DNA from: Sphaerolaimus hirsutus | Taxonomy: Eukaryota; Nematoda; Chromadorea; Monhysterida; Sphaerolaimidae | Direction of reading: 5' to 3' | NCBI GenBank assembly: GCA_964036195.1 | Contig: OZ038456.1 | Location: 16,492,001-16,556,000 of the forward strand | DNA: 64,000 nt | Shown here: positions 19,760 through 52,200 of the stretch, piece by piece | Numbering within the stretch: position 1 is the stretch's first letter | How the letters are laid out: every line of letters starts with the position of its first letter | Notes under the pieces: model-generated | Database searches by the model: none | The model's input: the letters and a program-made list of their open reading frames with translations, nothing else | Told to the model about the DNA's origin: nothing | Made by a program: the position numbers and the translations under genes

Positions 19760-19774
19760 ACCGACCCATTCCTG

Positions 19775-24987: not shown

Positions 24988-24998
24988 CCCCCCCCCAA
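24988..24998 (-). other. Polypurine tract of the Gypsy element
   Basis: On the minus strand, TTGGGGGGGGG lies immediately inside the 3' LTR. This is where plus-strand DNA synthesis is expected to start during reverse transcription. Confidence 0.7.
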
Positions 24999-25379
24999 GA
25001 CCGGGGCAGGGGTCTTAAAAAAACAAAGCGAAAACACCAAATTTACCGTAAATGTCCAAACCTATATTCTCGACTGGCAGAAAAAGGAAATTCAGGGAAA
25101 AAATAAATAAATAACCCTTTTTTTACAAACATCGAACCAATAAATAAGTAGGTATTAGTCAATTTATACACAAATGGAATTTTGAAAGACACAAAAAATG
25201 TCTACCCGTTTTTATGTAAATAAAAACCCGTAAAATGTTAAAACCCGTAAAATGATAAATGAAATGCACATCTCAACCCGTTTCTCCACTGAAAATCACC
25301 CGATACACATGTCAAAAGGCTGCGCGAAAAAAGGAACCGCAAAAAATTACGTGAAACTTCACAAAATGCCCAAAAAACC

Positions 25380-27170
25380 TTATCGCTTGCGGCTGGTTTT
25401 CTTAAAATCGGTTGTCTGGATGCTGGCCGGTTTGTCCGCCTCCTCGCCGCCGCTCTCGCCGAGCGGCGTTGGTGGCCGGGGGCGCGGTATGCGGCTTGTC
25501 GATGGCTGCATCGGCGATAGGAGGGGGGGAAGCGACGTAAAAGTGTCACAGATGTTTTTTATGTTGCGCCGCACCTCAGACGGGCTGTGCGGCAGCAACT
25601 CGCTGTCGCTGTAGTCAATAGAATCGGGGCTGAGCGCGGGGGAGGGGCTTTTGGGCTGCGTGAGGTCCTGCTGCTGGCGAGCGGCCGCCGCCTCGTCTTC
25701 GGATGCCTCCAGGAGCTCCGAAGCGATTTGGAGCTCCTCTTGGCAATCCTCCAACTGGCGGCGGAAACTGTCGCGCTCTACACGGACGCGCGCTTCCGCA
25801 TTTAGGCTCCAACGCAGCATGGGGAGCGCTTCGTGGGGATAGATGGAGAGGCGCTCCACGGTCGCGGACAACAGGTCGACCGTGCCGCGCAACTTAGCCA
25901 CCTCATCGCAATCTGAGGGGGGTGGCGGGACTTTTTTACCGTGGGGGGGTGAACCATCTATCGCAACCGTCCTATTACGGCACTCACCGGCGGGGGTGGT
26001 TGGGGCCAGGTGGCGGGGCGTGGGCAGTAGGGGCGCGGCCGGAATCTTGCGTGGTATGTCTGCGCAAGTGGCTGTACATTTTTGCACCCAGCGAGTGTTC
26101 CAAAAAACTTTAGCTGTGGACTCACTCGACATTTTTGGGAGGTGAGTGGCCGCGGCCGTGCGGTCGGCGGGTTTTGGGCGCGCGCTGCGGTCGTTTTGCT
26201 CTGCGCGGTTTTTTCCATGTGTCCCATAATTTTGTGCCCGTGAAAAAACGTTTGTCGGCGTAAAATTCACACCTGCGCCTGGTTTCGGCTGCACCGTGTT
26301 GAGCGGCACGGGCACGCGAATGTTCGTGTGGCCGACGACGCTTTCCAGCGAGCGCCGCTGCTCGTTTTGGGGCGCGGGGGGGCGGTTCTGTGTGGTGGGG
26401 GGGCAGCGATACGTTTTTGTGTCTTGTGCGGTTCTGCGACCCGGTAATTTTGGGGCTTGCGCCCGGCGGACTGAACTGACCCAGTCTGTCATGACGCGCT
26501 TGGCGCTGGGGTCGCGGGACGGTGGGCTGATCGGCCGGAAACGTGGCCGTTCCGCGGCCGGCGCCGCCGGTCTCTTGGTGCTGCTGTCGCGTCTGCCCTC
26601 CGTTCTCCCCACGCGCGAGTTGGTTAGATTGCCCCGGCCAGCCATTGTATTTGCACTCGTGTCTGAGATGAATTTTTCTTTTTTATTTATTATTTCATTT
26701 GCGGGTGTGAGTGCACACATTGGTACTCTCCGGAGAGAGTCCCCTGTATCGATTATTGCGATTGATTTATCGATTCCCACTACATCGTATGGTCCAGTGC
26801 GTAGGGGCTGCGTTTTTTGTTCTACAGATAATCCCCACTTTGTTTCTAGGTAGGCTGTGTCTCCGATTTTTATGGGTGTCCCTGTTTTCAGGTCATAGGC
26901 GCGCTTGTACCGATCTTGAGCGTGCTTCAGGTGCATTTTGGCTTGCTGCCATAATTTTTGCAAATGCCCTGGGCGATCTGCAGCCATCGGTACTCGCGTG
27001 GCTAATGCTTTGAGTGTCTTTTGCAGTCGTGTGTTACTGCTGGGCGGGGTGGGGTCGATGTTGTCTATTGTTTGGGGCGCGTCTGCTTTATCTTCGATAA
27101 TTGGGGGCATGTAACCAAACAGTAATTCGAACGGTGCATGCGCAATGTCCCGGTTGTATGCTACATTCAT
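25380..27170 (-). CDS. Gypsy integrase C-terminus plus ~400-residue extension (same frame as gag-pol, after a stop)
   Basis: This frame is in register with the frame ending at 27201; the two are separated by one TAA (27201-27203) and ten sense codons. It opens with the tail of the integrase core (AHAPFELLFG). A GPY/F-type module follows (LRTGPYDVVGI) and then a domain ending ALTPANEI near residue 165. The remaining ~400 residues are basic, Pro/Thr/Ser-rich and disordered-looking, then an acidic coiled-coil stretch with heptad-like LRGTVDLLSATVERL and EELQIASELLEASEDEAAA. I see no signal peptide or membrane segment, so it is not env-like. The function of the extension is unknown. The first ATG is probably not a real start. 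Confidence 0.75.
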   Translation of the reverse strand: MNVAYNRDIAHAPFELLFGYMPPIIEDKADAPQTIDNIDPTPPSSNTRLQKTLKALATRVPMAADRPGHLQKLWQQAKMHLKHAQDRYKRAYDLKTGTPIKIGDTAYLETKWGLSVEQKTQPLRTGPYDVVGIDKSIAIIDTGDSLRRVPMCALTPANEIINKKEKFISDTSANTMAGRGNLTNSRVGRTEGRRDSSTKRPAAPAAERPRFRPISPPSRDPSAKRVMTDWVSSVRRAQAPKLPGRRTAQDTKTYRCPPTTQNRPPAPQNEQRRSLESVVGHTNIRVPVPLNTVQPKPGAGVNFTPTNVFSRAQNYGTHGKNRAEQNDRSARPKPADRTAAATHLPKMSSESTAKVFWNTRWVQKCTATCADIPRKIPAAPLLPTPRHLAPTTPAGECRNRTVAIDGSPPHGKKVPPPPSDCDEVAKLRGTVDLLSATVERLSIYPHEALPMLRWSLNAEARVRVERDSFRRQLEDCQEELQIASELLEASEDEAAAARQQQDLTQPKSPSPALSPDSIDYSDSELLPHSPSEVRRNIKNICDTFTSLPPLLSPMQPSTSRIPRPRPPTPLGESGGEEADKPASIQTTDFKKTSRKR

Positions 27171-27200
27171 TTGTAGTGCTACTTCAGGTAGCGCTGTGGG

Positions 27201-30200
27201 TTAGTCGTTGGATTTTGTATTTCTTTGCGCCCATTGTCGTGTGAGCTGTTCCACGCTGCGGATTGCTCTTTCCGCTAGCCCGTTTGATTGTGAATGGTAG
27301 GGGGTTGTTGTGCGCAGGGAAAAGTCCCACTTGCGAGCCAGGTTTGACATGTCTTTGTTTACGAATTCTGTGCCGTTGTCCGTGATAAGTTCCGTGGGTG
27401 GTCCGAACAGATAAATGACATGTTTCTCGAGAGCCTTTGCCGTTGCCTCTCCAGTTAGTTGTCGCAATGGGGCTAAAGCTACCGCCCTGGTTAGATAATC
27501 AATTGCTACCAACATGTGTCTGTATCCGCGGAATTCGGGCATCGGTGTTGTGTCTACAGCCACTTTTTGCCATGGTTGTGTCCCTGGTTCGACTGGGAAA
27601 AGTGGACTGGACCCTTTGCGCTGTCCGTCTTTTGTGATTTTGCATGTGTGGCATTTTTTCACAAATTCTAGGGCGTCTTGTCGCATGCGCGGCCATGCGG
27701 CTGTTTTAGCTATTTGTTGGGTCGTTCGTTCCGCTCCTCCATGTGCTCCAAGGAGACCGGCGTGTGCGTTTGCTAGTAGCTTTTCTCTCATGTGGGTGGG
27801 TGCCCATGGTTGTGGTCCCTGTGGTCCTCTGTATTCTATGATGTCCCCTGTCCATGTATACTGCGCTTGGCCCATAGTGCCGTCGACGAGCTTATTTTTC
27901 AGGGTCTCGTATTCGGGATCTTTGCTCTGTTCGCGGCGCCAGTTTGTGACTGTTTGCAAGTATTTGCTCATGTGGGGACAGAGTTTTTCAAGTGGGATGC
28001 GGATACTTTCGCTGGCTCGCTGGAATGCCAGTGTGTCCAAATCTTCGATTGGGTTCCTGCTCAGCGCGTCCGCCACTACGTTTTGCTCTCCTGGGCAATA
28101 TTCGATTGTTAAGTCTTTCAGAGACAGTCTCATGGCCCATCGGTGTGTCCACCTTTCGATTTTCCCGTGGGCTGGCTTGATGAGTGCGTTTACAAGGGCT
28201 TTGTGGTCTGTTCGTAGGATTACTTTCTGCCCGTCAATGTAGTCGCCCAGCCTGTCAAGCGCCCAGGTGCACGCTAGCGCTTCTTTCTCAATGACTGACC
28301 AATTTTTGTGTGTTGTTGGTAATTTTTTGGACACAAATGCTACGGGTCGTAGCTGTTCAGGATTCGTTGCACATTTCTGCATTAACACTGCTCCCAAGCC
28401 AACGTCACATGCGTCCGTGTACAGGTAGTATTCTTTCGATCGGTCTGGATGTGCCAGCACTGGGGCGGTGCTGAGCATTAGCTTGAGAGTGTCATACGCA
28501 TTTTTAGCGTCTTCCGACCATTGCTCGTGTGGGGGAACTGGGTCATTTCCATTCACTCGGTATTTCCCTTTGGACATTTCATTTAGCGGTGCTGCTAACC
28601 GGTGAAAACTCGGGATATGCTGGCTAAAATAGCCTGCTTTTCCCAGGAACGTTTTGATTGTTTGTTTAGTTGTTGGGGTGGGCATTTCTAGTATTGCCGC
28701 AATGTTACTCCGTTTTGGCGCGATGCCTTTTTCACTCAACTCAAACCCCAGGAACTTGACTTTGCTGCAAAAAAAGTGGCACTTTTCTGGCTTCAGGCGT
28801 ATGCCTGCCCACTTTAAGCGGTGGAATAGTTGGACTAGGTGTCGCATGTGTTCGTCTGGGTTATTGCTCGTGACTAGGCAGTCGTCTATGTATGCAAAAA
28901 ATGATGGCCGTTCTGGTTCTATGTTCAGTCCGGCCAGAACGCAGTCCATGAGTCGTTGGAAACTTGCACCCGCGTTTTTTAGGCCCAGCGGCATGCGCGT
29001 GTAGCTGTACTGACCCCTGCTACACACGAATGACACCATGTCTCTTGTGGCCGGGTCAGAGATTGTGACGTTGTAGTACCCGAAACTTGCGTCCATGGTG
29101 GAGAAAACTGTTCTCTGGTTCATTTGCTGGAGCATATCGGTGATGCGAGGGAGTGGGTACGCATCTCGGACCGTGACGTCGTTCAATTTTCGAAAATCTA
29201 GGCACAATCTGTAGTCTGACTTGCCTTTTGGGACGATTACTAGTGGGAAAGCCCAGGGAGATGCGGAGGGCACGATTAGTTTCTTTTTGAGCATTTCATC
29301 GATGGTTCGCCATACAAATGCGCGTTTTGGGGGAGTTTCAAACCTCGCTGCGCACTTGATTGGTTCAGCCCCTGGCACTAGTTCGATTTTGTGTTCGGTC
29401 ACTTGTGTTTCCCCAATGTCATACTCATTCATGCTAAACAAACCTTCTTGCCGAGCTAGGAGGTTCTTGAATCGGTGCTGCACCGCTGGCGGCAACGCGT
29501 CCTGGCTGTCTGTGGGCAGGCGCTTCCAGATTTCGTCAATGCGTTCTTGTTCTTCTTGTGTCAATTCTCGCCATTCTGGCAGGGTGGCCGTTGGGGGTGG
29601 TGGGCTGGGCAGCTCTTTTAAGCCTTGAGCTGCCGGTGTTTCCGGCTCTTCAAATATCAGTGCATGGGTCGTGGTGAAAACTTCCGCTACTTTTGTGTGT
29701 GCGGGGATGTGGCAGTCTGTGTTTGTTGTGTTGGTTACACACATTTGGAATTCTGCTGCCTCCAGCCATTCGCGGTCTGGCTGAAGTATGGCGTTGCATG
29801 CGAGGCCCGGGATTCGTTCGTGAAGTTCTCCGTTTGTGTCCCTCATGTACGGGTCTAGTGCGTATGCGACTTTGTCCCCTATTTCTGTTTCCGTTAGGAT
29901 GGGGGTGTTTTTGTCTATAGCCACTTGCATGTGGGACCGTTGTCCAGGCGGAATGGTTGTTTTGTGTGTTGTGTACACATTTGCTGTGTGGCCTTGCGGC
30001 TTGTCGGCCGTGTCGTTTGTTCTGAGCACTTCGTTTTCCTGCTCATATTCGTTTGACAGTCTTTTCAATTCTTGGTGCGCTGTTTGGACGATTTGGAGGG
30101 GGCCCCATATCGCAGCTCGCCCAATTAGCAGTGGGTCCGCTGGGGGCAGGAATTCCATTAGTTTCACAACAGCCGGGAGTGTGTCTGTGCGCTGTGCTCC

Positions 30201-32255
30201 ATCTGGAGTTCTATGTTCCACTGTCATGTCATACAGTCTGAGCCACTCGCCCTTGATAATATTTCCCGATGTGCGGATGTGGCTGCCCAAGTAGGGTCTG
30301 AATCTTTTTCTTTCGGTGTCAGGGTTCATGTGGGCTTTCGCCCAGGCGCGCTCCAATGTGGAGTCTTCAATAAACAGGCCAATGTTGCATCCGGTGTCTA
30401 TGTGGCCCGTAATAGATACACCGTTGAACATGATCGTGGCCATTGGGTCGGGCGAACCCACTGTGCGTGTGCATGAATCGACTTTTGTGCTTGCAATTGT
30501 GGGGACCCAATCATCTAGGTTGTTTCCCTCTTCTGGGTCATCGCTGTTGTCCCACAAGTCATTGTCTAACTCATACTGTTCTTGCGTGCACCTGCTGGCC
30601 GGTGTTTCCGTGAACGGGATGCCCATCTCGGTGCATTTTTGCTTCATGTTATTTTTAGCTTCTTGTTCCGATTTTCCCCGCCTTGCAAGGGACTGTTTGA
30701 TGTTGTTTGCTCGCTCGGCCTGATGTGCCGGGGATTCTGGGTTTAGGTAGCATTTGTCTGGGCCGTGGGGCATGGGTTTGGGGTGCAAATGAAAAGTGCA
30801 CCAAGGGCCCTTGTAGTTGTCAGGGTCAAACGTGGCCCGGGCGCCCTCTGCGCAGCTGTTTGTGCTGTACGCTTTTGGCTCGGATTGCCAATTTGTGTTG
30901 TATCGTGGTCGGTTTCGTTGGGGTTTCTGTTCCTCTTTGCGCTGTGCTCGGGCCCTGTCGGCCTCTTTACGTGCGGCATCAATTTTCGTGATTGCTCTGT
31001 TTAGTGTGCAACCCCCGTCTTGCCAGCGCTCTCGCCACATATACCAGCAACTGACGGGGGCCAGTTTGGGTGCCTCGGTGAAAAATTTGTCACCGATCAT
31101 GCGTTGTCGGTCGTGATCAGACATTGTTTCGCTGATGTGGTGGAAATTTGCGCACAATCGCGTGTGGAATGAGGATGCTGTTTCTCCCGGTTCGGGCTTT
31201 AGGCTGTACCAGTCGGCCACTGAATGAACTGTGTGGTCGGCCCGGTATGCTTCGACTAGGCTGTCCACTACGTACAGAATGTCGTTGCGTTTATTCACGC
31301 GTATCGCGCGGTATTTATTCTGTGCGTCGCCTGTTAGGCATTGAATGAACACTGTGTTCCAGAAAAATTGTTGTTGGCACTCTGGGATGCCCATGGCTTG
31401 CTGCATAATCATGTGCAGCCAGAACTTGAATGGGCCGGTTTGGCTGTCTTCGTCTCCGTCAAATTTTATTTGTTTGCTGGCGGTAGATGCCACATGGCCT
31501 ACTCCGATTTTGTCTCTGGGGGCCCGAATCGTGCTGAGTGGTTGCAAACCGTCTTCTGGGGCCAGTACGAAGCGTTCCATGTACTCGACCATTTGCTGGA
31601 GTAGGGGGTTCTGGGTCAGCGTTGCCAACCGTTCCTCGGTGGACCATCGCCAGGGGTCGCCTTGCTGCTGTGTTGAGCTTTGCGATGAGCTGGTCAGATG
31701 GTTGTTGGCGATTATTCGCGTCAATTGTTCGATTCGCTTGTTTTGTTCTATGACTTGTTGCTGTTGCTGGTCAAACCGTTGGTTGATGTGCGTCGCCATT
31801 GCAGCCAAGTCTGATGTTTGGATTTTTAGGTCTGCGAATGGTGTGGGGGATGCGGATGCTCGCGATTGTGAGGGTGGCTGGAGCAGGGGTGCGTTCATTG
31901 CGGTAATATTCCCGCTATCACTTTCGTCCCCACTACTGTTTTCGTTCACATGTTCTGGATTTTCTATAGTTATCGTCGATAATTGCGACGTTTCGAAGAA
32001 TTTTTCCATTAGGCGCAACAGCCGGCGGCTGAGGGTTGTGTTGCTGTCTTTGCTGGCCACTGTGCCCTTTGGCCAGTCTGATTTTCGCAGTTTGTTCACT
32101 GACTCGATGGCGTTCACAAGCGCCCTTCTATTCCGGGAGTCTGTCCATTCAGAGATTTTCTGGCTGAATTCGTGCTCTCGGTATGTTATTTGTGGGCGCG
32201 CGGGGAAATTTGATGGGTTGGCCGCAGGTGGGCCGTTTGCGTCACTGTCTGACAT
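27201..32255 (-). CDS. Gypsy gag-pol polyprotein (protease, RT, RNase H, integrase), stopped within integrase
   Basis: 1684 codons. Gag occupies roughly residues 1-600, with a Gln-rich coiled-coil segment near 150-180. In place of a CCHC knuckle it has a His/Cys motif, CTFHLHPKPMPHGPDKC. The aspartic protease IDTG is near 618. RT shows SDYRLCLDFRKLN and the catalytic FAYIDD near 1125. RNase H has YTDACD near 1283. Integrase has the HAGLLGAH/CHTC zinc module near 1499, VDTTPMP, ITDNGTEF near 1626 and the glutamate in GLAERAIRS. A TAA at 27201 cuts the frame about 15 residues past the integrase region containing that glutamate. Gag and pol share one frame. The start at 32255 follows an 84-base leader. 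Confidence 0.9.
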   Translation of the reverse strand: MSDSDANGPPAANPSNFPARPQITYREHEFSQKISEWTDSRNRRALVNAIESVNKLRKSDWPKGTVASKDSNTTLSRRLLRLMEKFFETSQLSTITIENPEHVNENSSGDESDSGNITAMNAPLLQPPSQSRASASPTPFADLKIQTSDLAAMATHINQRFDQQQQQVIEQNKRIEQLTRIIANNHLTSSSQSSTQQQGDPWRWSTEERLATLTQNPLLQQMVEYMERFVLAPEDGLQPLSTIRAPRDKIGVGHVASTASKQIKFDGDEDSQTGPFKFWLHMIMQQAMGIPECQQQFFWNTVFIQCLTGDAQNKYRAIRVNKRNDILYVVDSLVEAYRADHTVHSVADWYSLKPEPGETASSFHTRLCANFHHISETMSDHDRQRMIGDKFFTEAPKLAPVSCWYMWRERWQDGGCTLNRAITKIDAARKEADRARAQRKEEQKPQRNRPRYNTNWQSEPKAYSTNSCAEGARATFDPDNYKGPWCTFHLHPKPMPHGPDKCYLNPESPAHQAERANNIKQSLARRGKSEQEAKNNMKQKCTEMGIPFTETPASRCTQEQYELDNDLWDNSDDPEEGNNLDDWVPTIASTKVDSCTRTVGSPDPMATIMFNGVSITGHIDTGCNIGLFIEDSTLERAWAKAHMNPDTERKRFRPYLGSHIRTSGNIIKGEWLRLYDMTVEHRTPDGAQRTDTLPAVVKLMEFLPPADPLLIGRAAIWGPLQIVQTAHQELKRLSNEYEQENEVLRTNDTADKPQGHTANVYTTHKTTIPPGQRSHMQVAIDKNTPILTETEIGDKVAYALDPYMRDTNGELHERIPGLACNAILQPDREWLEAAEFQMCVTNTTNTDCHIPAHTKVAEVFTTTHALIFEEPETPAAQGLKELPSPPPPTATLPEWRELTQEEQERIDEIWKRLPTDSQDALPPAVQHRFKNLLARQEGLFSMNEYDIGETQVTEHKIELVPGAEPIKCAARFETPPKRAFVWRTIDEMLKKKLIVPSASPWAFPLVIVPKGKSDYRLCLDFRKLNDVTVRDAYPLPRITDMLQQMNQRTVFSTMDASFGYYNVTISDPATRDMVSFVCSRGQYSYTRMPLGLKNAGASFQRLMDCVLAGLNIEPERPSFFAYIDDCLVTSNNPDEHMRHLVQLFHRLKWAGIRLKPEKCHFFCSKVKFLGFELSEKGIAPKRSNIAAILEMPTPTTKQTIKTFLGKAGYFSQHIPSFHRLAAPLNEMSKGKYRVNGNDPVPPHEQWSEDAKNAYDTLKLMLSTAPVLAHPDRSKEYYLYTDACDVGLGAVLMQKCATNPEQLRPVAFVSKKLPTTHKNWSVIEKEALACTWALDRLGDYIDGQKVILRTDHKALVNALIKPAHGKIERWTHRWAMRLSLKDLTIEYCPGEQNVVADALSRNPIEDLDTLAFQRASESIRIPLEKLCPHMSKYLQTVTNWRREQSKDPEYETLKNKLVDGTMGQAQYTWTGDIIEYRGPQGPQPWAPTHMREKLLANAHAGLLGAHGGAERTTQQIAKTAAWPRMRQDALEFVKKCHTCKITKDGQRKGSSPLFPVEPGTQPWQKVAVDTTPMPEFRGYRHMLVAIDYLTRAVALAPLRQLTGEATAKALEKHVIYLFGPPTELITDNGTEFVNKDMSNLARKWDFSLRTTTPYHSQSNGLAERAIRSVEQLTRQWAQRNTKSND

Positions 32256-32321
32256 TTTCGAAATTCACTTTTCTTTTGCGTGTCCCTGTATTTACTTGGA
32301 CATGGGCAATTTACTGGGATT

Positions 32322-32339
32322 TGTGCAGTGTGGTCACCA
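32322..32339 (-). other. Primer-binding site region of the Gypsy element
   Basis: Directly inside the 5' LTR the minus strand reads TGGTGACCACACTGCACA. The first eight bases would pair with a tRNA ending GGTCACCA, as tRNA-Trp does; later bases do not match that tRNA, so the primer assignment is weak. Confidence 0.55.
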
Positions 32340-32903
32340 TGTCGTGTGCACGGGTGGCTACAAATGGCAAAGTCCCGTCACACGGAAAAAACAACAATGT
32401 CCAACTTCGAGGGGAGCAGCGATGGGCCTGTGTGACTGATGCAGTGTCACGCCCAGAGGCTGTCGACCGGAGGGAAAGTTTATGAGGACCGTGTGTTTCA
32501 AAGTTGTGCTTTTTATCAAATCGTCGCCTCGCGACACTGGCTTCACGTTTCTAAACTCGCAGTTTCATTTTCGTGAGCTGATGGGGGGCGAGGGAAATGA
32601 GTCATGCGAATGAACACAACTGAATTGGAAGAAACATGCGGGCCTTATAAATGTCGGCTGGCGCATGCGTTTTGCGGGTGCCGCCGCAGCCACTCGCCGC
32701 ACTGCACGCCAATGGCGCGCAGTGCCGCGAGCGACTGGGGCGACACTCGCGTGCGCGTGCGTTCGCCGCCAATGCCCAAAATACTGCGCGACACCGATCC
32801 GCGCGTCGCCACGGCAACCCGGCGCCCGGCCGCGGTAAGCGCGGCCGAGCGTCGCGCTGTCGTGGCGGCGCGCGCAGCGGTTCATCTTGCCGCTGGGGCA
32901 ACA
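32340..32903 (-). repeat. 5' LTR of the Gypsy element (564 bp)
   Basis: Same length and, as far as I can read, same sequence as 24424-24987. As the minus-strand 5' LTR it should carry the element's promoter. Open frames inside it are shadows of GC-rich sequence. Confidence 0.95.
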
Positions 32904-33180
32904 GTACCCGGGCACTATGCACAGCACTTATAAAGTGTTGGAAAAAAGCCCCCAAATTTGTATAGTGCCCCGGGAATTATACTCGGAGAAATACGGTAGG
33001 CTTTCTGGCATACAAGTATTGATTCAATGTTTGATTCCATGCACTGTTTCCAGCCATTTGGTGATCAATATTCTGGATAAATGGCTATTTCATCAGGCGT
33101 ATTTTGTGCAAACCCTACGTTGTTTTAAGCACCCGACTTTGTCAACACCAATGTTGTTGTTCTATTTGAGTGCTTCTGAG

Positions 33181-35280: not shown

Positions 35281-37196
35281 CACTTATATAAGGCTGTAGA
35301 CTCTTTTACATGGTGGTTTTTGCTTTCTACGTCTGCGTACGTTATTAGTACTGGGAGTTCAAAGAATTTCTGGCGAAATAATAAATCCCCCTCGAAATAC
35401 CCCCCTTAAAATTCTCACTGAAAAAATAAACCCCCTTGGGGTATTTCGAGGAGATACGGTATCTATCCACCGAATAAGCGATTTGCTATCTACCCAACCC
35501 CCGGAGTGTCAAAATGTAGAATTCCCCTGGTTCCAATTGAACTTCAGCCCTGGTTCCAATCTAGCAACGGAAACTGATCAGTCAACTCGCACAGATCGCT
35601 CCGATGGATTCTCGACGTTTGACCGCCTTTGTGAACTTTTGGCTGTCGCGCATGTGCTCCCTCCTGGACGCGTTCGTGGAGGAGGCGGACGCCAAGTTGT
35701 CGCGCTTGGAGCTGAAGGTGGACAGGCTGAATGGGGACATTGCCCTGGCCGAGGCCAGGGTCGGCTTTCTTTTTGCTGTGTCTAGGGATTGCCAGCGCTT
35801 TTTCAATCGCTTTTTTCTAATCCCCTTATTCAAAAGGCCGTGATTTTGTTATGTTTGATGATTATTTTGAAAAAGCAAGAAATTGCTCTTTAAAAAAACG
35901 AGCCGTTGAAAAAACGCTTTTCCCATCGCTATGTCGTCAACTTCTCTTCAATCCGACAACAACCATTTGTGCAGATCAGTTCAATCTACTGGCTGCAGCA
36001 CGAGCTGCGGCGAGACGTCCAGCCCACGCTAAAAGTCGAACCGACAACAAACGGCACCAATGTTGAAAAATCCACGCCGCCACCGCCACAAGTTCAAGTG
36101 GTCGATTCAGTCGACCAGCGAGGGGTCTCAGAAACTCCGCCCCAATCTGAACGTCCGGATGTTCCCGACGCACCGGGTCCCGTGTCCGATGCTGAAGTGC
36201 GTTGAGTAGCCTTTTTTGTGCTTGTAACAGATAGGGTTCAGACGGGATTGACTTTTCGGGATCGGTGTTTTGAGATTTCGGGATTGGGTTTCGGGATCGG
36301 GATCCCGTTTGAACCCTGGGGGTCGAGTAACCCGCAACGCCAATCCCCTCCCTTTCCTACCCCTGCTTGTAAGTTGTCATTGTTATTTTGCAGTGATTGA
36401 TGTTTGCATCGGCAACCCCACGCAGCCACCTTCAAGTAGCGAGGGCATGGTCAAGGCGAGTGCGCACCCGTCCTATGCGAAGTACTTCAAAATGATCCAC
36501 ATGGCTAGTTGTATTACGATTTAATTCCGTGTTCCTCTACCACGCCTGGGTGCAGTTTCAAACCCTGTAAAGTGTAAAATGTCATGTCAAATGCCAATCA
36601 AAACAAAAAGAGAAGATTTTTTACTGAACTTTGCATGACAACTGACACTTCGCATGACATTTAACACTTTACATTTTACAGGGTCTGAGATTGGCTCCAG
36701 GATAATACCTGCTACACTAGAAAAATATCTACTCCCCTTTCAGGGCGTGCCAGCACAAGCTGTGAAGCACAAAATGATCATGGATGGAATTGACGGCAGC
36801 GTTTTAGAGTTCGTTTCACCGGCAATGACGGCCCACACACCAGTTGACACCTGCGTGTCAACTGGTCTGTAGCAACTCAGATTTCGGCTTCACGCGTCGC
36901 AGAGCGATCTTCCAATGCACTTGCCGTAATATTTATGTTTCCACATTGCCGCATGTGCATTTAGAGAACGCTCTGCTACACGTGAAGCCGGAATCTGAGT
37001 TGACACACGTGTGTCAACTAGTGTGTGGGCCGCCAATGGCGGTAGATTTTCGCTCACCTGCATCTGCAATTTGGTTTCTCACCGCAGTGCACCTGACGCG
37101 TTGGTCCCCGCCGCGGTTGTGGCCGCAAAGAAACTGGGATCGGTCAACTCGAGTGATGATGAGTCTAGCCAGTCGGGGAACTCTTTTAGTTCTTGA
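34025..37196 (+). CDS. WASHC3: WASH complex subunit 3 (CCDC53), six exons
   Basis: Exons: 34025-34084, 35595-35759, 35975-36196, 36426-36503, 36744-36808, 37088-37196, coding 232 residues (human 194). The family order is clear: AFVNFWLSRMCSLLDAF, then a coiled coil (ADAKLSRLELKVDRLNGDIALAEARISSI), a Pro/Gln-rich linker, HPSYAKYFKMIHM GVPAQAVKHKMIMDGID, and an acidic Ser-rich end SSDDESSQSGNSFSS. WASHC3 is a core subunit of the endosomal WASH complex, which activates Arp2/3 for actin-driven sorting. Intron 4 must start with GC (36504) to keep the frame, a GC-AG intron; the other introns are GT-AG. Introns 1, 3, 4 and 5 each contain a MITE. Confidence 0.88.
34347..35080. mobile_element. hAT MITE with CGGTACGGTAAA core, TSD CTCAAAAT (734 bp)
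   Basis: Ends TAGGGTGGCAGACGGTACGG and GGTAAATTCTGCCACCCTA. A perfect 8-bp duplication CTCAAAAT lies at 34339-34346 and 35081-35088. Arrays of ACGGTACGGTAAAT flank a unique centre. Confidence 0.9.
35213..35279. repeat. TA dinucleotide microsatellite
   Basis: About 33 uninterrupted TA units; it produces a spurious YIYIYI frame on the minus strand. Confidence 0.95.
36232..36317. mobile_element. Short hAT-family MITE (GGGATC type) in WASHC3 intron 3
   Basis: TAGGGTTCAGACGGGATTGA at the left and GATCCCGTTTGAACCCT at the right, 86 bp. The final TA of the right end and a target duplication are not seen, so it may be a truncated copy. Confidence 0.6.
36550..36700. mobile_element. Introner-like MITE inside WASHC3 intron 4
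   Basis: Left arm GTGCAGTTTCAAACCCTGTA, right arm CAGGGTCTGAGATTGGCTCC, then AG. The arms are inverted over about 40 bp with AATGTCATG words. Its right end supplies a possible AG, but the reading phase requires the acceptor at 36743, so the element is contained in the intron. Confidence 0.65.
36826..37035. mobile_element. MITE with TGACGGCCCACACAC.../...GTGTGTGGGCCGCCA ends in WASHC3 intron 5
   Basis: An imperfect palindrome of about 210 bp. GTTGACAC/GTGTCAAC motifs lie beside each end, and AACTCAGATTTCGGCTTCACG is matched by its inverse near 36980. Same family as 14727-15000. Confidence 0.7.
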
Positions 37197-37882: not shown

Positions 37883-40169
37883 ATGCGCGACTACCTTCGC
37901 TCGTGGCGGCTTTTTTGGCGCGGTTCCAAGTTTCTGACGGTCGGCCTGCCGTTTTTCGCCACGCTAGTGGGCGCGTCGTACGGACTGAAGTACTTCCAGG
38001 AGAATCGGTATACTTATGCTCGGAGGGTGCAGTCGTCTAAAGTCTCTGAGGAACTGGTTTGTGGGTTAGGGTGTAGGATGTTTCTGGTGCGCTGCGCAAA
38101 GTGTTTCGTTGGCGGTTTGGAGTTCAGTACGAAAGTATTCCATACGGCGCATGGCGTGGGTTAACGGGGTGTAACCGACTCCATTAGGCGGATTAACGTC
38201 ACGTTTGTAGATAAATAAATGATTGAGTGCATGACTACATGCCAAAAAATTAGTTTAGAAAAAATCTAGTTTCGAGCCCTACTCCTGGGGCTAGTTCCAC
38301 AACTGGAGAAGTAAAAGGGCAAATGCGAAGTGAAATGGGAAAAGAGAAGTCAATTGAGAAGTAAAATGACAAAAGCTAAGAGAAATAACTTTTTTACACT
38401 TCGCTTTTGCCATTTTACTTGCCATTTCAACTCACTTTTACCACTTCACTTTTACCACATACTTCTCACTTCTCAACTTGCGGAACTGGCACCTGAATTG
38501 CCAGTGTCACTGTTCATTTTTAATCCATTTTCTCGGTTTGATTCTTAGCTCCCCCCCCGCAGAAGGAGGAACTCTCTGCGGAAGGGGTGCAGCTAGCGGA
38601 AAAGCAGTCCGACGAACAACTAGTTAAGGTGAGTGCAGAAAGTAGGTTCTACTTGATCGTGTTAATGTGCAGTTGCGGGTGTGAGTGTGCAATTGTGAAT
38701 GATGAAAAGGTTCTTGACTACCGCAAATCCTCGAATAATAACCCCTCCTCGAATAACTTCCCCCTTCGGATGAAAACGATACAATACAAAAATACATGGT
38801 CGGGCTGAAAAGTCCCCGGGCAGTGCTCGCCATTTGCGCTAGGGGTAAGCTACGATTATAAAATTTTAACACGTTAATATATTAGGTGTTTTGAGTTTTC
38901 ACCCAAAATTTCACCCCTCTAGCTCCACCCACAGTTCCGCAGTGGGTGGAGCTAGAGGGGTGAAATTTTGGGTGAAAACTCAAAACACCTGATATATTAA
39001 CGTGTTGAAATTTTATAACCGTAGCTTACCCCTAGCGCGAATGGCGAGCACTGCCCGGGGACTTTTCAGCCCGACCATGTACAAAAGAATATTATCCTAC
39101 AGCAGCGACAGCAGATATATGATGGGTATGCTATGTATACACATATTTTTGTTGTTGTTGGACAATTATATACCTGAATTTACAGAGTTTACAGACTGCA
39201 CCCATACAATGAATTGAGTCCCAAGTTTTCTGCGGAAAATATAACTCCTCCCCTCGAATAACTTCCCCTTGAATAACTCCCCCTCCAAAACATCCGAGGA
39301 AAAAATAACTCCCGTGGGGTCTTTTTCTAGGATTTAGGGTACTTATGTTTACCGATTCCAAATGTAAAATGATATATATTTGAGGTATTTACCTCAATAT
39401 TACGATATCGATGAGCAGATATTTCAATCATCATAAATAAGCTAAAATTGGTTGAAACTACTGGCAATATTGTTTGTTATTTACGATGCACAAATCACCG
39501 TTTGAAATTCAGCACTTTTTTGAATGCGCGATCAATTAATGGCGAATTTTGATGAAAATTTTAACCCCATGATGTAACCCCCTCGAATAACCCCCCGACA
39601 AAACGCCCGACCCCTCATGCACCCCACACTCCGTATACTGGCCGGACTTGACGCTTTTCAAAGAATGCTATTTGTATTTTGACGAATAAAGTAGAGTGAA
39701 AATTTGCACACAAAATTCCGCCATAGTGAGAGCAATGTAATGTGAAGAGAAAGTAATAATTTTTGTTGGATTTTATTCAGTTTGGATTAGGGTTCAAACG
39801 GGACCGCTGTCTCGGTACATGGTTCGGCAAAAGTTGGGGCTGGGGCGGTCCCGGTCCTGACATTAGAAAATTTGTGGTGCCAGTCCGAAAAACTGGTTCC
39901 GTTTGAACCCTAGTGGGATACGGTAGGTTCCATCGTAAATCGTGTTGTCAGTCGACTATATCCAAACATTACCCCCCCCCCCCCAGGAAGCAGACTCAGT
40001 AGCCCAGGACGACTGGACCAACGTACGAGGGCCGCGTGCCTTCGAAGAGAACACAGAGTTCTCGCAGGTGAAAGACGAGCGCAGAAAAGAGCGCCAGCGA
40101 AAACAGAACGTTCTTTTAAGGGAGAGGGGGTTTATTACTGCCGAGGCGGCCGCGCAGGCTGCGAAATAG
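37883..40169 (+). CDS. COX16: Cytochrome c oxidase assembly protein COX16, three exons
   Basis: Exons 37883-38056, 38563-38628 and 39987-40169 give 140 residues (human 106). The single membrane helix (FLTVGLPFFATLVGASYGL, residues ~17-35) is followed by KYFQENRY, the expected matrix-side start. The hallmark DDWTNVRGPRAFEE lies in exon 3 (family DDW.N.RGPRPWE). COX16 is an inner-mitochondrial-membrane protein needed for assembly of complex IV (copper delivery to COX2). The C-terminus has an added basic helix (KDERRKERQRKQN) and an Ala-rich end not in the human protein. The stop codon lies 9 bases before the PTRH2 ATG. Intron 1 holds an introner-like element; intron 2 holds a 289-bp hairpin and a hAT remnant. 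Confidence 0.85.
38288..38494. mobile_element. Introner-like MITE inside COX16 intron 1
   Basis: Left GGGCTAGTTCCACAACTGGA, right CTTGCGGAACTGGCACC, with AAGTGAAATGG / CCATTTTACTT words in the arms. The sub-family is that of 23633 and 43052. It lies within intron 38057-38562. Confidence 0.65.
38719..39338. mobile_element. Degenerate CCGTAT-type element carrying a long hairpin
   Basis: CCGCAAATCCTCGAATAATA at the left and CTAGGATTTAGGG before TA at the right are degenerate inverted ends. The interior has ATAACTCC / CTCGAATAAC words of this family plus the 38793-39081 palindrome. Limits are uncertain. Confidence 0.4.
38793..39081. repeat. 289-bp near-perfect palindrome in COX16 intron 2
   Basis: The arms start TACATGGTCGGGCTGAAAAG and meet at CACCCAC-AGTTCCGCA-GTGGGTG. 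Arms of about 140 bp differ at only a few positions, so a transcript would form a long hairpin. Such near-identity implies recent formation or arm-to-arm conversion. Confidence 0.9.
39788..39912. mobile_element. hAT-family MITE, TAGGGTTCAAACGGGACC ends (125 bp)
   Basis: Left TAGGGTTCAAACGGGACCGC, right GGTTCCGTTTGAACCCTA. The core uses GGTCCCGGTCC words. No matching flanking octamer is found, so it is either old or rearranged. Confidence 0.65.
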
Positions 40170-40178
40170 GCGGGGCTT

Positions 40179-43100
40179 ATGGGTGATAAGGGTCCTGATT
40201 TGGGCGCCTGTTTGAGGCAGCAGGTTTGTTCTGGAGTGGTTTGCGGGTCGTTTTTTTTATTTCTGTTTTTGATTTTTAGCGCGCTTTATCTCATTTTGCC
40301 CACGAAAATTGGGCATAAATTAGCCTTAAAATTAGGCCTTAGCAGTCATGACTTTTGTCAATGTACCGCGCAGTTGCAAGATCTCGGTTTCACCAGCGAG
40401 ACCATCGATGTGGCCCTGTTCAACGTGGGCAGCGAGTCCGGCATCGACGCGCTCATCGATTGGATATTTAAAAATCAACACGAGGACCCAGATTGGCTGA
40501 GCGACAGCGATCAGGATAGCGCTAGTGAGCGGAGCGACAACGACTTTTGTGATCCCGGTTAGATGTTTTTTTCGTTTGTTTGTTTTGTGAAGTGATCGGC
40601 GTTTTTGGTGAAACGGGATGCTTGTGACATGTGTCAAATGACAAATCTCGAACAAAAACACTTTATCGGGAAGAAAGTTGTGCAGTATATCTTAGACTTG
40701 CACTGAATTGGCTAGGGTTCAAACGGGATTGATTTTTCGGGATAGGGATTTCGTTTCACTTTTCTCAGTGCAAAAAGAAATTTCTTTCACTTTTTTATCT
40801 TTTGTACTAATTTTTGCGGGATCGGGATCCCGATTGGGAAGTGTTTCGGGATCGGGATTTGAAGCTTTTTCCGGGATCGGGACCGGGGTTGGAATTTTCA
40901 GATTTCGGTTTCGGGATCGGGACCGCTGAATCCCGCAAATCTTCGGGATCCCGTTCGAACCCTACTTCAGTCAATCGGGAATTCATAACATGGGATGATA
41001 TTCGTCACTCGACTGAGCATGGGTTTGCTAAAAGAGTCCTTCCAGTCCCTAAAACTTTTAGTCAAACTAATTTCAGGAGCCGATCTGAACATGTTGTCTT
41101 CGAGCAGCTTCACGATGGCTTTGGTAGTCAACAGTGGACTGAAAATGGGCCAAGGCAAAGTGGCGGCCCAGTGCGCACACGCAGCACTCGGGTTGTATTT
41201 GCAGAAAGTTGGTGAGTCTCTTTGATTTCGAATTTTGTGGGCTGTTAAGCGCCCAATGAGTGCGGGGGCGGCCGCCCGTCTCTTCCTGGGTTACCCGTGG
41301 TAAATGTAAGGTTAAAACGGGATCCCGATCACGAATCCCATGTAATTTCCGTGGTTTCAACCGGAAATTTTCAAATCCCAAAACCCGTGACCCCAATCCC
41401 GATCCCGAAAATTCAAAATACGAAACCCGATCCCGAAAAATCAATCCCGTTTGAACCCTAGGTTAACGGAGGAATTGAGGCGTCTAATTCCCAAAGTCGA
41501 CAAGTCCACAAAATGCGATTTTGAGTCAATCGCATTTTAAGTTTCAGACCCAATTCCATGCCCGTGGTGCGTGTCCAGTTTGGCTCTCTCATGCTTTCCA
41601 TTAAGTTCCATATGTTGACAATAAAGTGTCAAATTTTCAGCCCCTGCTCTCAACGTATATGTGAAAAATGGGGTGTCCATAAAATTCCATTCGGTCAGAG
41701 CAAACTGTTTTGTGGAGAGAAATGGATTTGTCGACTTCTTGCACATGATAACATTTTTGTTCCCAGCGACGACGACGCTGCCTTATGGGAAATTTATGGA
41801 CTTGTCGACTTTTAGAAATCGGTTTCCACAGTGGACTTATCACATCTGTTGCGTTTTTTCCCATAAAAAAGGATGCGGAGGACATCTTGTCGACTTTTAG
41901 CCCAAAACTAAGTGGATTTGTCGACTTATTGCCCAAATTCTTTACATTTTCCCCAAAAATGTCAAAGTTGGCACTATGCCATATGGGCATGTGAGGTCAA
42001 AAAATTTATGGAAAATGATGAAAAATGTGCGGGAGTAGCCCCAGATGACGTTTCCGGACCTTACTCGAAATTTTCATATTTTGGACTTGTCGACTTTTAG
42101 AATTGGACGCCTCAATTGTAACCTGCTGTACAAATTCAAAGTGTTTTGGAAGAAAATCTGCCCAGATTCAGATGCGGCCAACACAATGGAAAAGTGGCGC
42201 CAGAACGGCCAGTCCAAAGTGTTTCTATCGGTTGCTGACACGCGCGAACTGGAACAGAAACTCAAGGTGGGTATGTCTAAAACCGGATACCGTATTTCCT
42301 CGAAATGCCCACCTTCAATGGCCACTATGAATTTATTGGCCCCCCTCGAAATACCCCCCTCCCCCCAATTGAGTGTAAAGAGAACGTTAATGACAAATAC
42401 AGCGGTTTGTGATTCGGGCAATGCAAAACACACGTTAAAAACAATGAATTGTTACGTTAGAACAGTGTTTATGCAACTACATTCTTATATAAGTCTATAG
42501 ACTCTTATATATAGCTGTTATTGTTGCATTTTTCTACGTCTGCGTACGTTACAGACGACAATTTAGTACTGGAATTTCAAAAAAATCTGGCGAAATAATA
42601 AGCCCCCCCCCTCGAAATGCCCCCCCTCAAAATTCTCACTCTAAGACAATCACCCCCGGGGGGTATTTCGAGGAAATACGGTACATTCTTGGTGCCACTG
42701 AACATCTTACCGGGGTCAGAGAATGTGAATTCTAGCACTGCATCTAATAGATAATGATATGTCTAACAGAGTAGAGTCTTTGCCCTTCCGAAACTTTAAG
42801 TAGAACTTCATCAGAAGAAAAAAACATGAAAAACAGGAATTTGTTAGCAGCGTGAATATATGCATATTTTTGAAGCTAAAAAGCGCGCCGCCTCACTGCA
42901 AAAAGCACAATCTGCTAGCTACATTTTTAGACAAACACACAACACGCAGTCGGCCCGCCAGTGCGGCATGTGGACGTATTTAGTGCACGACGCCGGGCGC
43001 ACTCAGATCGCCGCCGGCAGCACGACAGTTTTGGCTGTTTTCGGCGACCAGGTGCCAGTTCCCCAAAATGAGAAGCGAGAAGTGAAATGGCAAAGGCGAA

Positions 43101-43338
43101 GTAAAAGCGCAAAGGCCAAGTGAATTGGCAAGTGAAATGTCAAAAGCGACGTAAAAAAAATAATAATAAAAAGTAATTTCCCTTCGCTTTTGCCAATTTC
43201 CTTCTCAATTCACTTGCCGTTTCACTTCGCCTTTGTGCTTTTACTTCGCCTTTGCCATTTCACTTCTCACTTTCCATTTTGCGGAACTGGCACCAGGACA
43301 ACGTCGAAAAGTATGTCTTGGGCATGAAACAGTTGTGA
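40179..43338 (+). CDS. PTRH2: Peptidyl-tRNA hydrolase 2 with N-terminal membrane anchor and UBA domain, five exons
   Basis: Exons: 40179-40557, 41077-41211, 42172-42266, 42950-43051, 43297-43338, coding 250 residues; introns GT-AG, phases close. A membrane segment (VVCGSFFLFLFLIFSALYLIL, ~20-40) precedes a UBA-like three-helix module (CTAQLQDLGFTSETIDVAL...ALIDWIFKNQ, ~61-99) and an acidic linker. The PTH2 domain follows: MALVVNSGLKMGQGKVAAQC and DAGRTQIAAGSTTVLAVFGD. PTH2 enzymes release tRNA from peptidyl-tRNA; the animal form is anchored in the outer mitochondrial membrane. Human PTRH2 has the anchor but no UBA; a UBA in this position recalls the nematode protein (from memory). The ATG is 9 bases after the COX16 stop. 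Intron 4 is exactly an introner-like element. Confidence 0.88.
40713..40964. mobile_element. hAT-family MITE (GGGATC type) in PTRH2 intron 1
   Basis: TAGGGTTCAAACGGGATTGA at the left, GGGATCCCGTTCGAACCCTA at the right, with GGGATCGGGA arrays between. No clear flanking octamer is found. Confidence 0.7.
41307..41460. mobile_element. hAT-family MITE (GGGATC type) in PTRH2 intron 2
   Basis: TAAGGTTAAAACGGGATCCC at the left, AATCCCGTTTGAACCCTA at the right. The flanking octamers GGTAAATG and GGTTAACG match at 6 of 8. The left terminus has decayed (TAAGG for TAGGG). Confidence 0.65.
41475..42115. mobile_element. MITE with TTGAGGCGTC ends and GTCGACTT core in PTRH2 intron 2
   Basis: TTGAGGCGTCTAATTCCCAA at the left is mirrored by GAATTGGACGCCTCAA at the right. 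The interior repeats ACTTGTCGACTTTTAG about five times on one strand. Not clearly linked to any other family in the window. Confidence 0.6.
42290..42681. mobile_element. Reference-quality CCGTATTTCCTCG-family element (392 bp, TA target) in PTRH2 intron 3
   Basis: Ends CCGTATTTCCTCGAAATGCC and TATTTCGAGGAAATACGG with TA on both sides (42288-42289, 42682-42683). The interior shares GAGTGTAAAGAGAACGT and AATTGTTACGTTAGAACA with 34270-35459 and a related stretch of 47385-47778. The TA duplication suggests a Tc1/mariner-like mobiliser. Confidence 0.75.
43052..43296. mobile_element. Introner-like element forming PTRH2 intron 4 (245 bp)
   Basis: Left GTGCCAGTTCCCCAAAATGA, right ATTTTGCGGAACTGGCAC, arms inverted and nearly identical for about 100 bp. 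The flanks are CAG (43049-43051) and CAG (43294-43296). If this is the target duplication, the element's own GT is the donor and the second CAG is the acceptor, so splicing restores the uninterrupted codon order FGDQ-DNVEKY. Confidence 0.85.
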
Positions 43339-44310: not shown

Positions 44311-44584
44311 TCAAGTGTCAATTCGGGCAATAATTTGAGTCTCGAGTCCCCAATTTTTGCTCCATTTTGGCAATTGTCACCTTCAAAGTCGGCTGTACAA
44401 AATTAAAATCGGTATGTACATTTATTTTCAGCTGTTTTAACCCATTTTGGCACTTTTTAGCGAATTTTTCACTTCTGCATTCTGCACCTTGAAAAGTCTA
44501 TATATTTGTCCCCCCCCCCCCCCCGAGCCACCCAGCTCTCCAAAATATTCAGCCCTCTATCCATCCGGAGGAGCTATCATCCAC

Positions 44585-44784
44585 NNNNNNNNNNNNNNNN
44601 NNNNNNNNNNNNNNNNNNNNNNNNNNNNNNNNNNNNNNNNNNNNNNNNNNNNNNNNNNNNNNNNNNNNNNNNNNNNNNNNNNNNNNNNNNNNNNNNNNNN
44701 NNNNNNNNNNNNNNNNNNNNNNNNNNNNNNNNNNNNNNNNNNNNNNNNNNNNNNNNNNNNNNNNNNNNNNNNNNNNNNNNNNNN
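44585..44784. other. Assembly gap (200 N)
   Basis: The run of N is exactly 200 bases, probably a placeholder length. It lies between PTRH2 and the first visible UGT exon, so a missing 5' UGT exon could fall in it. AAACTCA / ACACAGAAACAC-type repeats flank the gap (44785-44945 and again 45735-45890). Confidence 0.99.
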
Positions 44785-45123
44785 CAGAAACTCATTGAGT
44801 TTCTGTGTTTTTGTTTTACACAGAAACACGGAAACTCATAAATTTTGAAAAACTCAAAACTCAAATGAGTTTTTTTTTGGAGAACACAGAAACACAGAAA
44901 CACGGAAACACAGAAAAGTTTTTTTGAGTTTTTGTGTTTTTTTCAGCAAAGCGGTTGCATGCACATTAATTCAGTCAAACTAAACAAGATAAAATAAGCA
45001 TGTATAGTATGTAAATATGTACATAATGTATTCATATTTTATAATGGTACAAAAAAAGAAATTCAAGATGGCATGCACATCTCACGGTGGATTTGACAAT
45101 TTAAGTTTCGACATTTAAGTATA

Positions 45124-49200: not shown

Positions 49201-52200
49201 CTTGGCCGACCTCCGCGCGCAGCACTTCGACCTAGCCATCGGCCATCAATACAATCTGTGCTGGCTGGGCATAGCCCGCATGCTCGGCATCGAGTCGGTC
49301 ATCTGGGCGAGCAGCTCGTCTTTCTGGCCCATGATGGGCGCTGCGGCGGGACAGCCCCCCGCGGCCAGTTTCGTGCCCGGTTTGTTTTCAAATTTTGGGT
49401 TTTCAGACGGGTTGATGAGCTGAAAAAAATAAACCCTCCCTCTAAAAAGCCCCCTTGAAATACCCCCTGGTGTAAACCCTGTGTGATAAAATAAACCCTC
49501 CCTTCAACTCAGGCATTATGACATCATTTGGCGATGAAATGAGCTTTAAAGAGCGTTCGCTGAACTTTATCGGCGGTATTCTTGGTAGCAGATTTAGCAG
49601 AAAGTTTTACGTTAGCAAATATTTACAGTATATCCTCGAATAAGTCCCTTCTCTCGTATAAGTCCCACCTCTTGTGAATGTGAGGAAAAAAATCACTAAC
49701 CCCTCGAATAACCCCCCTCTCGAATAACCCCCCTCAACTTCTGAAAAACTTCTGACTAAAAAATGTCCCCCCGGAGGACTTATTCGATGATATATGATGA
49801 TTTTTTTTTTATTATTCTTTCAAACTCCAAATTATTCTTTCCTTTTCCGCAACAGAATTCCTGTTTGCGATAAATTATAAATAAAAATATATTTCCAGGG
49901 AGTATTGAATCATGTCTTCCAACAGAAAGTGAGCGGAGATTTTCCAGATCTCTTGGAATTGGCCAGTACAAATGTGCAGCTGTACATGGCTAATAGCATT
50001 GAAATGCTTGAATTTCCCACGCCGCTATTACCGAATTTTATTCAAATTGGTGGAATTGGTCTCAAACAGCCAAAGCCGTTGGATGAGGTACTTAAATGGC
50101 CTCTTTTGAAATTGTAATAATGTTTTTTTTATTGATATTTTGTTTGTCAACTTGAGCACAGAAATGGTCGAAAGTGTACAATGATGCAAAATCTGGTGTG
50201 ATTTTCGTCTCATTTGGCTCGGTGGCTTCAGCTGGCTTGATGCCAGACGGCTGGAAGGCGACCATCATACAAGCTGCCCAGCAGATGCCCAGCTACACTT
50301 TCATTTGGAAGTATGACTCCATGGACATCTATGGTAACAAAATAGATTGATATTTAAAATGAAGATGTTAAAGGATTGGTTCATTTTCAGACAAATTTGA
50401 TGTCCCGAAAAATGTGATTGTTTCAGACTGGCTTCCACAGTTGGATCTGTTGGGTTTGTTTTCATAGTCATTTCTTATACCAATTACCTACTCAGATTTT
50501 TTATTTTTGTATTTTGTTTACATAATTCTTATCAACAATATCGCCTCAACCGACAGAATTTTTCATAGCGCATCTTATGATATATTTTTTTAAGAAGTAA
50601 ACTAACTCCAGTCAAAGTTTTTCGCGAATCATTACATAAGTACTGGACTTTTTCAAAAGTACCCGTACTGGTATTTTAAATACTTTCATTTTTACCTTTC
50701 CTCAAAAATACCTGGGTAAAATACTTTGTCTTTACCCAGTACCTGAGTAAAATTGCGTAAAAGTATTTTTTCAAGTATTTTGAAGTACAATTGATTATTT
50801 TTTTGTACATGGGTGCTTGAGGTAAGTGGCACTAAGTTTTAACAATAGACGCCTGCATTCTTAGAACAAATTACACATGAAAATACACCAGTGATGGCTT
50901 GGGTTCGGACACTTAGAATTTTTTTATAAAAAAACTTTATTCCGCCAGAATTAATATCTCAGAAAATTTTGGCCGGTACCTAAATAAAGCCAAAACGTGT
51001 GACTACAAAAGCCATGGGACACCCCCCAGTATAATGCCATGTGGGCCGCGTAAGTGGCCCACACATTTTTTTATACAAAATTTCGTTGCTGACTTGGGTT
51101 CGGACACTTCCTTTATGTAGCAGTAAATCTGTCTTTCAAGGCCGGATTTTCGCTTTGAAGACTCTGGCTAGTTGCCAGAGTCCAATTCTTTTAATTAATC
51201 AGATTACGATAGACTTTTATTACCTCATGTTCTTGATACTTGTTGGTTGAGTTAACAATCATTTTCCTCAGTTCCTTACACAGGTGCATCACTCAAGCAC
51301 AGTTTGCATGCGATTTTGGGAATTCAGCAGTGTGTAGGGCACTGGGAACAACCAGGACAGTTACAGGGGGTTGTGGGGATTATTTTATTCTCACCCCTTT
51401 TCAAGGAAACCCCCCAAACTCAAGACGCTTAAGAGCAAAAATGTAAAATTCAGAAAATGTAAAAATTTAGTAGTAAAAAGGTAACATACACACAATAATT
51501 TTTTGCACTTAAACGCCTCGAGCTTAGGAAGGTTTCCTTCAATAGGGGTGTGTATAAAAGATTCCCCACAACCCCCTGTAACTGGCCTGGTTGTTCCCAG
51601 TGCCCTACACACTGCTGAATTCTCAAAATCGCATGCAAACTGTGCTTGAGTGATGCACAAGTGTGAGGAACAGAGGAAAATGATTGTTAACTCAATCAAC
51701 AAGTATCAAGAACATGAGGTAATAAAAGTCTATCGTAATCAGATTTATTGAAAGAATTGGACTCTGGCAACTAGCCAGAGTCTTCAAAGCCAAAATCCGG
51801 CCTTGAAAGACAGATTTACAGCTACATAAAGGAAGTGTCCGAACCCAAGTCAGCAATGAAAGTTTGTATAAAAAAATGTGTGGTCCTCTTACGCGGCCCA
51901 CATGGCGTTATACTGGGGGGTGTTCCATGGCATTTTTAGACAAATGTTAGGGCTTTATATGGATACCGGCCAAAATTTTCAGAGTTATATAGTTCCGGCG
52001 GAATGAAGTTTTTTATAAAAATTGACTAAGTGTCCGAAGCCAAGCCAACACCAGTGTATTAATTAATGCAGGTATACAGTTAATACATGCTTACGTTTTG
52101 CTTCTGAAGTTTTGGTGTGCATATTTGAATTTTCTAAAATACTCAGAAGTGCCCAGTGCAGATGGGTACTGGTACTATCAAAGTATTGTACCCAAGAGTA

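Follow-up and report, generated by a model that had tools for sequence, protein, structure and literature searches.

We analysed a window of 64,000 nucleotides from the nematode Sphaerolaimus hirsutus (contig OZ038456.1, positions 16,492,001 to 16,556,000 of the forward strand; positions below count from the first letter of this window unless a contig or locus is named). On its plus strand lies a PTH2 (PTRH2-like) gene whose GT...AG intron at 43052-43296 consists, along its whole length, of one inverted-repeat transposon. An earlier note, made from the letters alone, had described this intron as an inverted repeat from end to end, and the measurements bear that out: the arms (43048-43139 and 43206-43297) are 92 nt long, ungapped and 89% complementary, and the RNA of the element is predicted to fold into a single hairpin of -149.7 kcal/mol, compared with -56.0 on average (sd 4.9) among 200 shuffled sequences, none of which folded as well (z = -19.2). 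The interval starts with GTGCCAGTTCCCC, ends with GCGGAACTGGCACCAG and has CAG immediately 5'. At its left junction GGCGACCAG meets GTGCCAGTTCCCC; at the right, GCGGAACTGGCAC is followed by CAG and then by GACAAC. CAG thus flanks the element on both sides, as the note had also said. The left copy (43049-43051) is the last codon, Gln, of the upstream exon, and the right copy (43294-43296), which the interval includes, gives the AG acceptor, so that the intron comprises the element plus the right-hand CAG. Copies of this element, here the A family, recur in the genome; a sister element forms the B family.

The gene assignment was confirmed by Pfam. Four plus-strand exons were placed: one with the start of the domain (41115-41211, 5' end approximate), one with its middle (42172-42266, starting at 42166 or 42172), the exon preceding the element (42950-43051, SARQCGMWTYLVHDAGRTQIAAGSTTVLAVFGDQ) and the last exon, 3' of it (43297-43338, DNVEKYVLGMKQL and the stop). 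The two exons around the element join in frame, as had been claimed, to give FGDQ followed by DNVEKYVLGMKQL and the stop. PTH2 matches two exons of the gene in separate frames, and the spliced model scores 107 bits (residues 1-109 of 111, profile positions 3-113 of 115), against 102.6 bits (residues 1-95) when translation continues into the element and 102.5 when the model is cut at the junction; the gain from splicing is small because just 13 residues follow the junction. In the alignment the junction is gapless relative to all 12 relatives, two of which are proteins with UBA and PTH2 domains; the best solved relative is human PTRH2 (bit1, 1q7s), and the best organism-labelled one comes from the clam Mya. 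Splicing would take GT from the element and AG from the duplicated CAG, adding no codons. A different boundary, with GAC as the duplication (GGCGAC/GACAAC) and CAG as part of the element, was rejected: it implies two extra codons, and the PTH2 tail is not longer than in the relatives. Five of the 12 (P0001, P0002, P0009, P0012 and P0017) have a tail of equal length, the other seven have one that is longer by a residue, and no relative has a shorter one. Numbering the intron as the fourth, as the note did, is plausible but not proven, because the count of upstream exons depends on an unverified first exon. The UBA match of that exon is weak (14.3 bits, under the cut-off of 27), and a search with the exon alone returned no homologues.

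The element belongs to a repeat family with inverted terminal repeats. One search of the 348.5-Mb genome gave 2,688 first-look candidates, of which the 40 most like the query, the query included, were scored, and every one of these matches 234 or more of the element's 245 bases at 88% identity or better. Aligning 37 of them (L002, L017 and L026 were dropped) yielded a 241-bp consensus that is a near-perfect palindrome with the ends GTGCC and GGGCC; the median divergence of the 40 copies from this consensus is 5.1%. In the eight copies checked, pyrimidines make up 70-73% of the last 60 nt, much as in a polypyrimidine tract. GTGCC stands at both ends in three of three copies in recognised exons (L001, L004 and L007) and in none of 35 others (Fisher p = 0.0001), a pattern we do not rely on, as exon status was judged partly by eye and the query is among the three; it is limited further by B-family exon copies, which do not have it, and by a copy outside the 38 distinct loci (L003, 1280-1498) that has it without a recognised exon. 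At L003:1280-1741 a pair of A elements in head-to-tail arrangement has one CAG common to both. A search of viral contigs for the end pattern of the element gave no matches.

The note had proposed CAG as the target duplication. Among 38 distinct loci (duplicates L002 and L017 dropped), the flanking triplets are identical in 20, where 12.2 are expected with the right sides shuffled (p = 0.00095), and CWG stands on the left in 33 and on the right in 30. Of the 25 loci with CWG on both sides, 12 are CTG/CTG, eight CAG/CAG, five CTG/CAG and none CAG/CTG, and the wider target is palindromic, about AGAC-CWG-GTCT. An empty and a filled site of the B-family sister element point the same way: the window has a single CTG (40231-40233, plus strand) where a tandem paralogue (C9:16589253-16590417) has the element with CTG on both sides. 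The duplication therefore stands, with CWG rather than CAG as its target. PIF/Harbinger-type miniature inverted-repeat transposable elements (MITEs) duplicate a 3-bp TWA that sits in the middle of a longer palindrome; the present element is like them in its 3-bp duplication within a palindromic target and unlike them in the triplet, which is CWG and does not conform to TWA.

CAG is also the usual triplet both at the end of an exon (CAG/GT) and at the end of an intron, and the two flanking CAGs might reflect splice consensus only, with no target duplication. The agreement of flanks in just 20 of the 38 loci fits such a view, but copies outside recognised exons also have CWG at both ends with within-locus matching above chance, the paralogous empty site has a single CTG, and without a duplicated CAG the length of PTH2 would change, which it does not. 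We hold this explanation to be very unlikely.

Mixed flanks run in one direction. Among A copies they are CTG..CAG in five and CAG..CTG in none of the 25 loci with CWG on both sides, and among the eight B copies that have CWG on both sides (others were dropped) the counts are three and none, giving 8 to 0 when pooled (p = 0.008; loci L010, L019, L029, L034 and L004; window 21412-22000 and 36546-36700; L053 8237). The asymmetry is unexplained; mismatch repair at a cruciform was dropped as its cause, as it would yield mixed flanks in both directions. On the strand read, roughly half of the copies sit at CTG, a triplet that provides no AG; only insertion at a CAG target thus makes a ready-made intron. 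The claim that insertion creates such an intron accordingly holds at PTH2 and has to be narrowed to targets of that kind.

Two more element-introns occur in a BORCS5-like gene on the plus strand of the window (19994-24029; exons 19994-20051, 21245-21411, 22001-22162, 22532-22716, 23492-23632 and 23954-24029). Its intron 5 (23633-23953, phase 2) is exactly a second A-family element with CAG on both sides, and its intron 2 (21412-22000, phase 0) is exactly a B-family element, beginning GTGCCAGTCCC and carrying a nested insert, with CTG on the left and CAG on the right. The B junction is gapless relative to solved BORCS5 (9tqb) and to the three proteins matched by the search, two of them from nematodes (Plectus and Toxocara), among which L/R is invariant; the A junction itself falls in a variable stretch, with a conserved EE.L.VD tail directly past it. 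By its genes alone the host is an animal and probably a nematode-like ecdysozoan. Two further tandem copies of the gene lie downstream, and all three have an intact 262-residue frame and both element introns. Between the window gene and copy 2 there are 16 synonymous changes in 189 sites and two nonsynonymous changes in 600, which indicates purifying selection; the corresponding numbers of changes for copy 3 are five and one. The B intron is 589 bp long in the window gene, against 198 bp for its counterpart in copy 2. Given intact copies and purifying selection, a message under selection presumably loses both element introns. The surrounding block, C9:16511994-16600658 (window 19994-43338, with BORCS5, COX16 and PTH2), is partly repeated downstream, where the three intact BORCS5 copies are joined by more COX16 and PTH2 pieces with their elements.

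Elsewhere in the genome, copy L007 (C2:26200594) lies in a vasa gene with DEAD, Helicase_C and zf-CCHC matches, at the junction ERQTAMFSATIDDQ/VSRLASRF, which is gapless relative to 4d25 and 2db3. A short vasa piece was identified by a sequence search of the PDB; Pfam gave no matches for this piece, and none for the frame at L020, where a B copy (2291-2463) has an open frame across its junction and unverified gene status. A KCTD gene on an unplaced contig of 12.8 kb (C521) has three elements within coding exons (C521:10548-12414; L057, L004 and L058), and with the elements removed its BTB_2 domain scores 64.1 bits and aligns to 85 of the 94 positions of the profile. The first of these, KCTD 1, has CTG on the left and CAG on the right, in an open frame that begins at ATG and continues into the domain; perhaps a fourth element starts right after EADYYQ, at the end of the contig. 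Five of the seven exon copies, at unrelated positions, are exact introns with AG at the seamless position: PTH2, vasa, KCTD 1 and BORCS5 introns 2 (B) and 5 (A). For PTH2, vasa and BORCS5 intron 2 the junction is in frame and gapless by homology. The paralogues identified also carry the element.

We consider it very probable that the PTH2 intron is an introner, that is, a transposon that inserted at an exonic CAG and became an intron with the message exactly restored. A short non-autonomous DNA transposon, MITE-like and nearly palindromic, would have entered the PTH2 coding exon at CAG and duplicated that triplet. The element would supply GT as its first two bases together with a pyrimidine-rich second arm, and the duplicated CAG would supply AG, so that splicing would take out the element with one CAG and leave the message as it was. 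From the genomic sequence we infer that the intron is actually spliced, by the spliceosome, and that the element was moved by a transposase encoded elsewhere. The mode of action that the note had put forward is thus supported for the PTH2 intron by a multi-copy element, a target duplication and a restored frame.

Several observations weigh against this interpretation. A recognised coding exon surrounds just three of the 38 distinct copies, and although all three are exact GT...AG introns, one is the query; PTH2 and vasa were recognised by homology across the junction and KCTD 1 by its open frame, and the other 35 were judged by G+C and by an open frame over the joined flanks, so that exon copies may have been missed. 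None of six paired elements in 60 kb of arbitrary sequence from three chromosomes was verified as an exact intron, two of the six (C4 4207 and C7 8237) having open frames across the junction and unverified gene status. Taken together, these counts do not establish that copies are enriched at splice sites. Between the PTH2 duplicate L002 and the window gene there are three differences in 144 coding bases, all of which alter the amino acid, and no middle exon of L002 turned up in the 1.4 kb upstream; selection is accordingly shown for BORCS5, not for PTH2. Finally, two of the seven exon copies lack AG at the 3' boundary, namely KCTD 2 (C521:10936-11150) and KCTD 3 (C521:12172-12367), which have CTG on both sides. 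At each of them, removing the element and one CTG restores BTB_2 in frame (CSTLL/ADPNCMLATM and DRTHL/AELVQEADYYQ). The last 60 nt of the KCTD 2 element contain no AG, and the first AG comes about 50 bases into the next exon; at KCTD 3 a GAG six bases downstream might be used at a cost of two residues, lowering the Pfam score from 64.1 to 62.3 bits. KCTD 2 is 14-17% from the A consensus, which makes it either an old insertion or a member of another subfamily.

Not all copies are introns in themselves, and an element might have landed in a pre-existing intron whose old sequence was later lost, leaving its ends at the splice sites. The window holds seven paired elements (a half copy near 2797 and single ends left out), of which three are exact introns and three lie inside COX16 or probable introns: an antisense A-family copy in a COX16 intron (38283-38495, minus strand) and plus-strand B-family copies in probable introns (36546-36700 and 16644-16765), all three away from splice sites. 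The seventh, a B-family copy, is on the plus strand 5' of the BORCS5 start codon (19772-19943). Insertion into introns thus does occur, but at PTH2, vasa, KCTD 1 and BORCS5 introns 2 and 5 nothing is left over between element and exon, an exact loss at both ends would need to recur, and the coding sequence has the CWG target that copies elsewhere have. Such a history is highly improbable. The probable intron around the copy at 36546-36700 (36505-36743) has a GC donor (ATG/GCTAGT) and belongs to what we take to be a WASHC3-like gene. An inverted-repeat element of a different family, with the ends ACCGGCAATGACGGCCC, lies at 36818-37043 and starts about five bases past a probable splice donor.

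The insertion might, alternatively, never be removed, the gene copy being dead or its C-terminus replaced. Read-through into the PTH2 element meets an early stop 22 codons past the junction, losing the last 13 residues costs only 4.5 Pfam bits, and the amino-acid-changing differences of L002 in the two last exons would suit a dead gene. In the window copy, however, the short last exon is open and can be aligned to the C-terminus of PTH2, and BORCS5, with two such introns, is intact in three copies. We give this possibility hardly any credence.

Removal of the element could also take place regardless of splice sites, through recognition of the hairpin and re-ligation of the message. SOS splicing, an animal pathway that excises transposons from mRNA and ligates the ends, is described in part of a review (PMC13247085). 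The element here forms one long hairpin; most exon copies, by contrast, have exact GT-AG ends. The two in-frame KCTD copies without AG at the boundary favour this route, but in five of the seven exon copies an AG stands exactly where a seamless junction has it, a feature that excision of a hairpin would do without, and as an account of the PTH2 intron we think it unlikely. For KCTD itself, either the gene copy is dying or no AG is needed to take out such hairpins, whether the spliceosome acts at TG or SOS splicing does the work.

Introners of DNA-transposon type were reportedly described by Huff, Zilberman and Roy in 2016, and the anatomy of the PTH2 intron matches this known kind. As portrayed in parts of a 2022 survey (PMC9860276), such introners share with the present element a short non-autonomous structure with inverted terminal repeats and a target duplication, and a message restored by taking one splice site from the element and the other from the duplicated target; relative to that account, the 3-bp CWG duplication within a palindromic site and the near-perfect palindrome over the whole length set the element here apart. 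The introner elements of the dinoflagellate Amoebophrya, as far as described in sections of Farhat et al. 2021 (PMC7789003), are similar in having inverted repeats inside the ends of the intron, boundaries marked by direct repeats of 3-5 nt and a predicted hairpin that brings the exon borders together, and dissimilar in that their boundaries are mostly non-canonical and their repeats 8-20 nt long, whereas arms here are of about 90 nt and boundaries mostly GT-AG. Among the titles listed in searches on introners, intron gain and MITEs we found none on this family, and we do not claim that the family is absent from print.

The remainder of the window contains other repeats. On the minus strand at 24649-32976 there is a long terminal repeat (LTR) retrotransposon, gypsy-like by eye, with an open frame of 1,687 residues between related flanking sequences. 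A large inverted repeat (50954-51988) has arms of 465 nt that are 92% complementary and 105 nt apart. Arrays of short units like the interior of B elements (12577-13120) are followed by a tandem repeat with four reading frames open (13115-13695), and 200 consecutive N lie within 44441-44942.

Introns are mostly so old that their origin can no longer be seen, and in this one genome the parent element, its target, the empty site of a sister copy, and coding-exon as well as ordinary insertions can all be read. The 2022 survey, in the parts used here, found introners in 175 of 3,325 genomes and, among animals and land plants, in two groups only, both animal, and it names copepods (Gozashti et al. 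2022, PMC9860276); by the same parts of that source, introners have rarely been reported from animals (PMC9860276). The split of copies between CAG and CTG targets is an experiment of nature on which feature lets an insertion be spliced, its splice sites or its hairpin. A speculative extension, to which we assign a small chance, is that introns might be born in two steps, hairpin excision sheltering CTG insertions until a T-to-A change hands them to the spliceosome. The long hairpin would first be excised from mRNA even without AG, as perhaps at KCTD 2 and 3, and the gene would stay working; the right-hand T would then change to A, turning CTG..CTG into CTG..CAG, which is how BORCS5 intron 2 and KCTD 1 are flanked. 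Copies without a recognised exon (L010, L019, L029 and L034) show CTG..CAG as well, so the state alone says nothing of splicing. Such a CTG route would be new in principle, and if it is real, spliceosomal introns would have a birthplace in the excision of transposon hairpins.

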